Shown here piece by piece: positions 2,735 to 14,081 of a stretch of 14,218 nucleotides of DNA. The stretch's first letter is position 1; every line of letters starts with the position of its first letter. The translations under genes were made by a program, and so were the position numbers. This DNA is from Candidatus Poribacteria bacterium. Lineage in GTDB: Bacteria; Abyssobacteria; SURF-5. The DNA lies in contig JACRIR010000245.1 of the NCBI GenBank assembly GCA_016215705.1, forward strand, positions 1-14,218, given 5' to 3'. The notes beneath the pieces are model-generated. The model searched no databases, had not been told where the DNA came from, and was given only the letters and a program-made list of their open reading frames with translations.

Positions 2735-2763
2735 TTGACAAGAAAAAGGGCGTGTGGTATATT
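2735..2763 (+). promoter_or_regulatory. Near-consensus sigma70-type promoter of the cold-shock leader
   Basis: Perfect -35 TTGACA (2735-2740), a 17-base spacer and a -10 TATATT (2758-2763). Transcription should begin near 2770, giving a leader of about 130 bases before the cold-shock gene. No other promoter-like sequence is seen between the leader terminator and that gene, so this is its probable promoter. Confidence 0.8.
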
Positions 2764-2798
2764 TTCTGGTGAAGAGTGAATCTTTTGGTGTCGAATTT

Positions 2799-2816
2799 AT
2801 GAAGGAGTTGGCCTGA
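2799..2816 (+). CDS. Candidate leader mini-ORF 1 (MKELA)
   Basis: A five-codon frame ATG-AAG-GAG-TTG-GCC-TGA inside the cold-shock leader. Its stop overlaps the start of the second mini-ORF in a TGATG, an arrangement that can couple translation. A weak GGTG lies 8 bases upstream. Its AAGGAG codons also form the Shine-Dalgarno of the second mini-ORF, so this frame may be incidental. Confidence 0.25.
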   Translation: MKELA

Positions 2817-2860
2817 TGTCCGTAAGAGTTCTGAAGTGCTCTTACGGATTTTTTTGTTAG
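2816..2860 (+). CDS. Candidate 14-aa leader peptide overlapping the attenuator
   Basis: A 14-codon frame encoding MSVRVLKCSYGFFC. GAAGGAG (2801-2807) lies 8 bases before the ATG, a near-ideal ribosome site. The frame runs through both arms of the terminator hairpin and its T tract, and stops just after it at 2858-2860. A ribosome translating this frame would physically prevent the hairpin, so the layout is that of a translation-sensitive attenuator. I do not recognise the peptide as a described leader. Whether it is translated is unknown. Confidence 0.5.
   Translation: MSVRVLKCSYGFFC
2819..2855 (+). terminator. Intrinsic terminator within the cold-shock leader (attenuator)
   Basis: A perfect 10-bp stem TCCGTAAGAG/CTCTTACGGA (2819-2828 and 2839-2848) with a 10-base loop, followed directly by a run of seven T. 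It lies about 50 bases downstream of the predicted start of transcription and 48 bases upstream of the cold-shock start codon. Because no second promoter is seen after it, expression of the cold-shock gene should require readthrough. Confidence 0.85.
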
Positions 2861-2884
2861 AAACCACACTACATTAATATCAGA

Positions 2885-2895
2885 TAAGGAGGTGA
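2885..2895 (+). promoter_or_regulatory. Extended Shine-Dalgarno of the cold-shock gene
   Basis: TAAGGAGGTGA is complementary along its full length to the usual 16S rRNA 3' end. It ends 7 bases before the TTG start at 2903. Its strength probably compensates for the rare start codon and decides the start choice. Confidence 0.8.
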
Positions 2896-2902
2896 ATGCA
2901 GT

Positions 2903-3103
2903 TTGCCAGAAGGAACAGTAAAGTGGTTTAACAATCAGAAGGGTTACGGGTTCATTACCCAGGACGATGGTCCGGATGTGTTTGTACACCATACGTCCAT
3001 TCAGGGTGGGGGCTTCAAGACCCTCGCCGAGAATGACCGCGTCCGGTTTGAGACGGTCCCGGGCCCCAAAGGACCTAAAGCAGAGAACGTGGAGAAGCTG
3101 TAA
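2903..3103 (+). CDS. Cold-shock domain protein (CspA family), 66 aa, TTG start
   Basis: Single cold-shock-domain protein that binds single-stranded nucleic acid and acts as an RNA chaperone; family members such as CspA and CspE of E. coli can melt terminator hairpins. RNP1 is K13-GYGFI-18 and RNP2 is V26-FVHH-30, both intact; the aromatic residues W8, F17 and F27 of the binding face are present. Length is typical. The start codon is TTG at 2903, chosen because it gives the usual [10 protein letters not shown] start and follows an 11-base Shine-Dalgarno; a nearby ATG at 2896 is out of frame. The gene is monocistronic, preceded by a leader with an intrinsic terminator and followed by its own terminator. 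Autoregulation through readthrough of the leader hairpin is an inference. Confidence 0.95.
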
Positions 3104-3127: not shown

Positions 3128-3160
3128 AAACCCCGCATCTCTCTTGAGATGCGGGGTTTT
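3128..3160 (+). terminator. Intrinsic terminator after the cold-shock gene
   Basis: A 14-bp stem AAACCCCGCATCTC/GAGATGCGGGGTTT (3128-3141 and 3146-3159) with a TCTT loop and trailing T residues, 25 bases after the cold-shock stop codon. The A run on the other side makes it potentially bidirectional, so it could also end the facing DUF1847 message. Confidence 0.9.
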
Positions 3161-6958: not shown

Positions 6959-7001
6959 GCTTATTCGGGGACACCATGCCGCATGGTGTCCCCGAATAAG
7001 C
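6959..7001. repeat. Perfect palindromic element, GGGGACAC core, TTATTC-flanked form
   Basis: Perfect 21-bp arms around a single base at 6980; the left arm begins GCTTATTCGGGGACACC. The core is CCATG.CATGG here and CGATG.CATCG in the copy at 10886-10932, so the change is compensated on both arms. It lies in the 165-base space between porB and the small membrane-protein gene. No T tract follows. Confidence 0.85.
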
Positions 7002-10885: not shown

Positions 10886-10932
10886 GCTCTTATTCGGGGA
10901 CACGATGCGGCATCGTGTCCCCGAATAAGAGC
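10886..10932. repeat. Perfect 47-base palindromic element at the 3' end of porG
   Basis: Perfect 23-bp arms around one base at 10909; the left arm begins GCTCTTATTCGGGGACACG. It shares its inner 20 bp design with the 6959-7001 copy. It encodes the last 13 residues ([13 protein letters not shown]) and the TAA stop of the PorG-like protein, so insertion appears to have replaced the original end of the gene and widened the gap to the next one. Confidence 0.88.
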
Positions 10933-12522: not shown

Positions 12523-12557
12523 CGGGTTTACGGTTCACGGTCCACGGTTTACGGTTG
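12523..12557. repeat. Short heptamer array, ACGGTTY type
   Basis: Five consecutive 7-base units in phase: CGGGTTT, ACGGTTC, ACGGTCC, ACGGTTT, ACGGTTG. Same unit as the long array at 13914-14081. A two-unit remnant ACAGTTT-ACGGTTG occurs at 13847-13860. Confidence 0.75.
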
Positions 12558-12698
12558 CTAATTAGTCGGTCTTTGGAACTGTGAGCAGCGGACCAAGCAA
12601 CTGTGAGCTGCATCCGCCGCGTGCTTTGCGAAGCTCCTTTTGCTCTTGTTCCTTTCGGGTTTCGCCTTCGGTTTCCCCAGGCGCCTTCGGGTGAAAGC

Positions 12699-12774
12699 GT
12701 GCGAATGAATTCACGCCCACAGCGCCATGCGAATGAATTCGCACCTACAGTCATGTGGACAAATTCGCACCTAC
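12699..12774. repeat. Three tandem-like copies of the GCGAATGAATTCGCACCTAC repeat
   Basis: Copies at 12699-12720 (ending CACGCCCAC), 12728-12748 (TGCGAATGAATTCGCACCTA then C) and 12755-12774 (degenerate, GTGGACAAATTCGCACCTAC). The unit contains the self-complementary GCGAATGAATTCGC-like core. Two more arms of the same family form the inverted repeat at 2121-2193. Confidence 0.7.
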
Positions 12775-12788
12775 CGTGCATTGTTTTC

Positions 12789-12808
12789 GGGCGACTCGCG
12801 AGTCGCCC
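12789..12808. repeat. Perfect 20-base palindrome GGGCGACTCG/CGAGTCGCCC
   Basis: Perfect palindrome followed by CTACAAGATACG. The palindrome at 3993-4021 carries the same flank in the opposite orientation, with differing but still paired inner bases, so these are two members of one family. Confidence 0.7.
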
Positions 12809-12880
12809 CTACAAGATACGTCATACGCCTACAAAATACGCCACAGGAATTATGAAGCGTACGCCTAATGAAGCCTGGGG

Positions 12881-12900
12881 CTCCACGCCCGGGCGTGGAG
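12881..12900. repeat. Perfect 20-base palindrome CTCCACGCCC/GGGCGTGGAG
   Basis: A fully self-complementary 20-mer in the repeat island with no adjacent T tract or gene. A second copy was not noticed in this window. Confidence 0.6.
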
Positions 12901-12993
12901 TTGATTGTTTGGCCATGCGCTCCTTCCCGCGCGCATGTTTTGAACTGTGAAGACAAGCGGCTGCCTCCGGTCCCCCACCACGCTTGCCAGAAA

Positions 12994-13049
12994 GAAGGCA
13001 AAAGGCGAAAGGTCAAAGGGCCGCAGGCCCGAGGCGAAAGGGTAAAAGC
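12994..13049. repeat. Purine-rich heptamer array, GAAAGGC type
   Basis: Eight 7-base units in phase, among them GAAGGCA, AAAGGCG, AAAGGTC, AAAGGGC, GAAAGGG and TAAAAGC. Related units occur near 13113-13140 and at 13332-13359 (GAAAGAC, GAAAGGA, GCAAGGC, GAAAGAG). The unit sequence is unrelated to the GGTTC heptamers but has the same length. Confidence 0.6.
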
Positions 13050-13060
13050 AAAGAAGAAGA

Positions 13061-13085
13061 GATTGCTTCGCTCCGTTCGCAATGA
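13061..13085. repeat. Dispersed hairpin repeat, ATTGC/GCAAT version
   Basis: Second copy of the repeat at 7037-7061. The outer stem differs in sequence but stays paired, and both end in ATGAC. Confidence 0.55.
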
Positions 13086-13280
13086 CCGTCGCGCATAAAG
13101 CCTTCCTCTCACAAAGGAAAGCGAAAGGCGAAAGGGGCCGCGCAAGGCGCGGAGTTCCGAGTTTCGAGTCGAAACCAGGGCTGTCTGCGGATCGTGCGAA
13201 GCCTCGACGTGAGGTTTGAGGGTGAAATTTCGCTTCCATTTTCCTATTCTGCCTTGTAACTCTTTGGCGCAGAAGGATAT

Positions 13281-13462
13281 GACACAAATGACGCAAGCAT
13301 GACGCAAGACCTGAATGAGAGACGAACAGGGGAAAGACGAAAGGAGCAAGGCGAAAGAGAATGCGTAACCAATGCTTTTGTAAGAACTTGTGAAGACAGA
13401 ATGCGCGGGGCCTCGAGACCTTTTTTGAAGAAATATGACACAAATGACGCAAATGACGCAAG
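13281..13462. repeat. Two clusters of 9-mer ACRCAAATG units
   Basis: Units such as ACACAAATG and ACGCAAATG or ACGCAAG(C)ATG occur at 13281-13308 and again at 13435-13462. Both clusters are preceded by ATATG, so they look like copies of one repeat. Four GAAAG-type heptamers (13332-13359) lie between them. Confidence 0.55.
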
Positions 13463-13913
13463 AAATCGTGTTTCGTTTGAAAAAAATTTGGGCTTAAACG
13501 ATCCAGTTGATTTTGGAATCGCGCGAGGCGAGGGACTTCGCAATGATCAGCCTGCCGATGAACGCCGGCCGGGCAAGGCGCGGGGTTTTGAGTACATGGT
13601 TCCGGGTTTCTAGTCAGAGAAGGAAGAGGGGGAACACGAATGGCGCGAATCATGGCGAATGGCACGAATGAGAACTTTTCCTTGCCAACGCATTTATCGA
13701 CTGACCAGTCAGCGAACAAAGAACGTATTGCAGTTGGCTTGGGCTCGAGCCGGGTCGTTGCTCCGGTCATTTCCCTTGTGAACATATCAGTCGTCTTCCT
13801 TCCCTTTGTGAGCGTGGCAAACAGTCTTCTTACTGACATCTACTATACAGTTTACGGTTGGGTGGAGAGTTGGTCAACGAACTTTTTGTTAACAAAAAGG
13901 ACCAAAGGCGGAA

Positions 13914-14081
13914 GTGGTTCACGGTTCACCGGTTACGGTTCACAGTTTATAGCAACCGGTTCATAGTTCATAGTTCATAGTTCATGGTTCATGGTTCATG
14001 GTTTAGGATTCATGGTTCATGGTTTATGGTTTATGGTTTAGGGTTTAGGGTCCACAGTTTACGGTTCACGGTTCGCGGTCA
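13914..14081. repeat. Heptanucleotide tandem array, about 24 units in uninterrupted phase
   Basis: The stretch parses without a gap into 24 units of 7 bases, consensus A-[C/T/G]-G-G-T-T-[C/T]. Examples are ACGGTTC, ATAGTTC (three in a row), ATGGTTC, ATGGTTT (three in a row) and AGGGTTT. Units vary, but spacing is strict through 168 bases. Seven is not a multiple of three, so the array cannot encode a repeated peptide of constant frame. Confidence 0.85.

Follow-up and report, generated by a model that had tools for sequence, protein, structure and literature searches.

A candidate terminator/antiterminator attenuator in the leader of cold-shock genes of Candidatus Abyssubacteria

The csp locus and its leader

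We analyzed a stretch of 14,218 nucleotides (hereafter the window) from a member of the lineage described as Candidatus Abyssubacteria (PMC6121073). On its forward strand, a cold-shock (csp) gene is preceded by a promoter, a conserved 5′ element and an intrinsic terminator (T), and is followed by a second terminator (Table 1); the gene looks like a one-gene unit. The promoter ranked top among nine promoter-like matches in the window, and transcription is predicted to start at approximately 2770–2773. A strong terminator was defined as a stem of ten or more contiguous pairs, including no fewer than 4 G-C pairs, with six or more T in a stretch of 8; exactly two were present in the window (called at 2848 and 3156, on either side of csp), where 0.025 would be expected per shuffled window. 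The stem of T is a perfect 10-bp helix (2819–2828 with 2839–2848), and its T run occupies 2849–2855. The spacing from T to csp comprises 42 bases (2861–2902), ending immediately before the TTG start codon (2903); the closest approach to a promoter within them was an 8/12 match, which relatives do not share. An earlier note on this DNA had described these bases as lacking a promoter, as our search bears out, and its near-consensus promoter, mini-ORF, 14-codon ORF with a Shine-Dalgarno sequence and 10-bp hairpin are likewise all present (Table 1).

Table 1. Features of the csp locus in the window.
Feature	Coordinates	Strand	Remarks
Sigma-70-type promoter, TTGACA-17-TATATT, TG ahead of the -10	2735..2763	+	11/12 consensus matches
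Conserved 5′ element AGAGTGAATCTTTT (family consensus AGAGTAARRCTCTT)	2773..2786	+	Alignment A1; at the predicted transcription start
Antiterminator helix, 5′ strand	2778..2784	+	Predicted by folding RNA that stops short of the 3′ arm of T
Mini-ORF MKELA, ATGAAGGAGTTGGCCTGA	2799..2816	+	Overlaps the next ATG; not conserved
14-codon ORF MSVRVLKCSYGFFC	2816..2860	+	Found in the window copy alone
Intrinsic terminator T, TCCGTAAGAG-loop-CTCTTACGGA then 7 T	2819..2855	+	In 12/12 leaders
Shine-Dalgarno of csp gene, AAGGAGGTGA	2886..2895	+	GGAGGTG kept in 12/12 leaders
csp gene, TTG start, 66-aa cold-shock protein	2903..3103	+	Pfam CSD, E = 2.6e-27
Terminator 3′ of csp gene	3128..3160	+	Strong-terminator call at 3156

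We noted several further features of the window. An ATG lies right behind the csp Shine-Dalgarno sequence (2896–2905), out of frame with the TTG at 2903, and among csp paralogs the starts alternate between ATG and TTG. A REP-like palindrome (TCGGGGACACGATG..CATCGTGTCCCCGA) occurs at 2672–2713, 6960–7000 and 10889–10929, one copy thus lying just upstream of the csp promoter; a search of the genome with this pattern gave 130 matches over both strands, and the reversed control gave none. Lastly, several stretches of degenerate 7-base repeats (GGTTCAT/GGTTCAC) are found at 12526–14079.

A leader shared by twelve csp genes

A search with the csp protein returned Candidatus Abyssobacteria SURF_17 (locus L006) as a close relative, at 83% identity. 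The same leader (class A) was found in front of 12 csp genes, four in each of three genomes of one family (the MAG that holds the window, G001, and G002). The promoter, the 5′ element and T are common to all 12 leaders, in the same order and spacing: TTGACA, a 17-base spacer, AGAGTAARRCTCTT, a divergent spacer of 30–37 bases, T, a divergent stretch, AAGGAGGTGA, and csp. None of them departs from TTGACA or from a spacer of exactly 17 bases. Mean pairwise identity across the 12 leaders was 0.86 for the 5′ element and 0.92 and 0.89 for the two arms of T; elsewhere it was 0.28–0.45 (spacers), 0.41 (the loop of T) and 0.55 (third codon positions of csp). Conservation of the hairpin in relatives, which the earlier note had named as a check, was found: the consensus of T reads TCCGTAAGAGTTTTG-nnn-GCTCTTGCGG plus a T run, 99% of cells are paired, and the pairs include one fully compensatory change (G-C to A-U) as well as a neighbouring position with three pair types. 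The arms keep their sequence beyond what this pairing needs, which is what a second partner for the ascending arm would lead one to expect.

To look for the leader elsewhere, we used a covariance model of the terminator and a 5′-terminal hairpin, P1 (model R1), which recovered the 12 leaders at E below 1e-9 among 290 genomes. No copies were found at other genes in these genomes, except for one weak match (G166), which was rejected as an ordinary terminator before purH. Judged by these matches, the leader is specific to csp genes and, within the 290-genome sample, to this lineage. A plasmid search with the leader gave no match. When the window and 20 related loci were compared with Rfam 15, no family matched at gathering thresholds, in agreement with the earlier remark that the leader is unlike described ones; the Rfam cspA thermosensor model likewise gave no match at its gathering score.

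Pairing of the 5′ element with the terminator

The 5′ element, which the earlier note had overlooked, has two options. It can form P1, a weak hairpin (2773–2776 with 2782–2785) in which 98% of cells are paired over the family, or it can pair with the ascending arm of T through complementarity between the 3′ half of the element (RCUCUU) and AAGAGU in the arm. For RNA ending just before the descending arm, the second pairing, a putative antiterminator, was the predicted fold in all 12 leaders, usually around a small hairpin, and only 0–3% of shuffled 5′ elements matched the real fold. A helix that is an alternative to T and shares one of its arms is therefore predicted in 12/12 leaders, if weak in the window copy. 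Over the family, 94.8% of cells in the 8-bp antiterminator helix are paired; the helix has 7–12 contiguous pairs in 10 of the 12 copies, and 10–12 in seven of 11 copies, a count that takes in just one member of a near-identical pair; the strongest pairing is that of G002_C23. The window copy is the weakest: its element reads UCUUUU and forms 7 bp with one bulge (approximately -2 kcal/mol), 2778–2780 being paired with 2829–2831 and 2781–2784 with 2824–2827, with G2828 bulged. Compared with shuffles, pairing in the window copy gave P = 0.02 in one test and P = 0.34–0.72 in others, among them the first test, in which the 5′ element alone was shuffled (P = 0.40–0.72).

Once the descending arm has been made, T is predicted to be far more stable (approximately -18 to -21 kcal/mol) than the antiterminator (-2 to -7 kcal/mol), hence the outcome should be set by kinetics or by a strand-exchange factor. 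In equilibrium folding of the truncated RNA, the antiterminator was alike at 4–45°C, and a thermometer that works by simple melting is not supported by these predictions. We also noted that the 5′ half of P1 (GAGUAA) can pair with UUACUC behind T in some copies, the window not being among them; the combined P of 0.003 comes from related sequences that are not independent, and we take this pairing as a hint.

In its anatomy and its conservation, the leader gives good support to the attenuator reading. We consider it likely that the leader is a cis-acting terminator/antiterminator transcription attenuator dedicated to csp genes, which are probably switched according to whether RNA polymerase gets past T. 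Control by readthrough had been proposed in the earlier note; the attenuator, with its anatomy, its conservation and its attachment to csp, stands, and control via a 14-codon leader peptide does not (see below).

That such a switch operates in living cells, and what would set it, we infer; the course of events would be as follows. Transcription would begin at approximately 2770, and the 5′ element, the first ~16 nt of the RNA, would pair with the ascending arm of T immediately upon synthesis of the arm. If this antiterminator persists, polymerase would pass the T tract and csp mRNA would be produced; if the descending arm displaces the 5′ element, T would fold and a short RNA of ~88 nt would be released. 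Self-folding of the 5′ element into P1 would free the ascending arm and thus favour termination. The 14-codon ORF would not be needed. As the trigger we favour either the amount of free Csp protein or the kinetics with which the strands exchange at low temperature. Csp itself may be the most natural factor, the identity of the regulator being a reasoned guess: Csp proteins are RNA chaperones that alter intrinsic termination, and would therefore feed back on their own synthesis. E. coli CspA, CspC, CspE and CspD make termination at intrinsic terminators less efficient (PMC9765468; PMC4347634), whereas B. subtilis CspB/CspD seem to favour it (PMC8307031), hence the sign of the feedback could be either way.

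The complementarity might instead be a by-product of Csp or another protein binding the 5′ element and the arms of T at similar sites (AGAGU...CUCUU twice). The antiterminator helix of the 12 class-A leaders has an invariant core and hence shows no compensatory changes; on conservation alone, pairing and recognition by a protein cannot be told apart, and the retention of primary sequence in the arms of T beyond pairing needs would suit binding sites equally. In most copies, however, the pairing outruns the shared core and extends up to 12 bp, and unrelated Desulfobaccales leaders also pair their 5′ end with the terminator (P = 0.003–0.01), which makes recognition by a protein unlikely as the explanation.

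Even less probable, in our judgement, is a separate small RNA gene that finishes at T, with csp transcribed from its own promoter in 2856–2890. The terminated product of ~88 nt has a conserved structure and could be stable. Nevertheless, no consistent second promoter was found between T and csp across the 12 leaders (best matches 7–8/12, in differing places), and a second promoter after T was rejected on this ground. Moreover, model R1 finds csp-linked copies alone, and the element never occurs away from csp in the three genomes; a trans-acting RNA would seldom be so confined.

The 14-codon ORF, which the earlier note had cast as an embedded regulator, is preceded in the window by AAGGAG, a good Shine-Dalgarno sequence, and spans both arms of T and the T tract, such that ribosomes on it could enter T and block its folding. 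Its ATG and any shared frame are absent from all 11 other class-A leaders; of the two things whose lack of conservation in relatives the note had named as refuting, the hairpin is thus kept and the frame is not. In the nearest ortholog, G002_C61 (same locus as L006), CAGGTCCG stands where the window has TGATGTCCG, the ATG of the mini-ORF is lost, AAGGAG has become AAGCAG (ATAAAGCAG), and the sole GTG-started ORF across T sits in another frame. With start codon, Shine-Dalgarno sequence and frame missing from 11 of 12 leaders that all keep the promoter, the 5′ element and T, and with a would-be ribosome-site spacer as divergent as the promoter spacer (mean pairwise identity 0.45 versus 0.43), leader-peptide coupling was rejected as a general mechanism and strikes us as highly improbable; the ORF is probably incidental.

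Other csp leaders and known systems

Similar layouts of a terminator in the csp leader recur in other phyla. The remaining three csp genes of the Abyssubacteria genomes (class B) likewise show a promoter, a leader terminator and the gene, in different sequences; pairing between 5′ end and terminator in class B leaders was not significant in comparison with shuffles. In other genomes, a promoter and then a terminator precede 16 of 77 csp genes, the SURF_17 ortholog being one of the 77, versus none of 62 control genes at the same loci. By eye, most csp genes of single Desulfobacterota genomes have this layout.

One class, from Desulfobaccales/Syntrophobacterales, comprises 14 leaders (alignment A2; loci L009, L019, L023, L026, L030, L039, L042, L046, L047, L055, L059, L065, L072 and L077) with GTTTAGCATGTCAGAC at the start. 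The terminator loop, ATGCTAA, is complementary to GTTTAGCATGTCAGAC, the segment behind the terminator pairs with AGCAUGUCAG in nearly all sequences, and this is the class in which pairing between 5′ end and terminator exceeds that of shuffles. These leaders, approximately 180 bases upstream of csp, are strongly conserved (GTTTAGCATGTCAGAC ... GATCGGA..GGATGCTAA..CCGATTTTTTT..GCCTGACTGCTG..CCCTGC). They matched nothing in Rfam 15 at gathering thresholds and, like the Abyssubacteria leaders, appear to represent an RNA family missing from that release.

Beyond class A, individually significant antiterminator pairing was found in the Desulfobaccales class and two single leaders only, and an antiterminator in every class of csp leader was rejected accordingly. 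It is possible, and we put it forward tentatively, that csp genes of Abyssubacteria, Desulfobacterota and some Acidobacteriota have attenuators unrelated in sequence, in which the leader terminator faces competition from the transcript's 5′ end, and that Csp, an RNA chaperone that alters terminator folding, senses its own level through them.

Two further groups of leaders were noted. In Desulfobacterales (L050, L053, L064, L079; approximately 150 bases upstream of csp), a terminator-like hairpin and T run follow soon after the predicted start, and a ACATCCTCC segment is complementary to GGAGGATGT, which contains the Shine-Dalgarno sequence. Acidobacteriota leaders (L022, L029, L032, L038) share GCACTAGTGGCCG..CTGGCGTTCG..GCGCTAGTCAG without a T run, which looks like another structured leader.

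In the literature accessible to us, outside which lay most subscription journals and a 2017 survey of 224 candidate RNAs, we found no description of a csp leader with its own terminator switch. Control of the amount of Csp is known mainly from the enterobacterial cspA leader. That leader, represented in Rfam by the cspA thermosensor, is likewise a structured 5′ UTR before a csp gene, and its effects are on translation and on the stability of the mRNA (Giuliodori 2010, as cited in PMC3738593 and PMC6239172); unlike the leader in the window, it is without an intrinsic terminator switch. Leader-peptide attenuators of the trp/his type carry a conserved ORF with a start, a Shine-Dalgarno sequence and regulatory codons, which the class-A leaders do not. 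The pyr, bgl/sac RAT and trp-TRAP leaders resemble the csp leader in having mutually exclusive helices that share a terminator arm upstream of a gene. By contrast, the csp leader is unrelated to them in sequence, it would control the gene of an RNA chaperone, and it is the extreme 5′ end of its transcript that supplies the putative antiterminator strand. Terminators modulated by Csp proteins (metY-rpsO; SgrS, tnaCAB) share with it a plausible trans factor, but their targets are other genes. At metY-rpsO, Csp proteins reportedly modulate intrinsic termination, in work attributed to Bae in 2000. CspD modulates it at SgrS and tnaCAB (PMC9765468). The csp leader permits a direct test of an RNA chaperone that would regulate itself via the folding of its own terminator.
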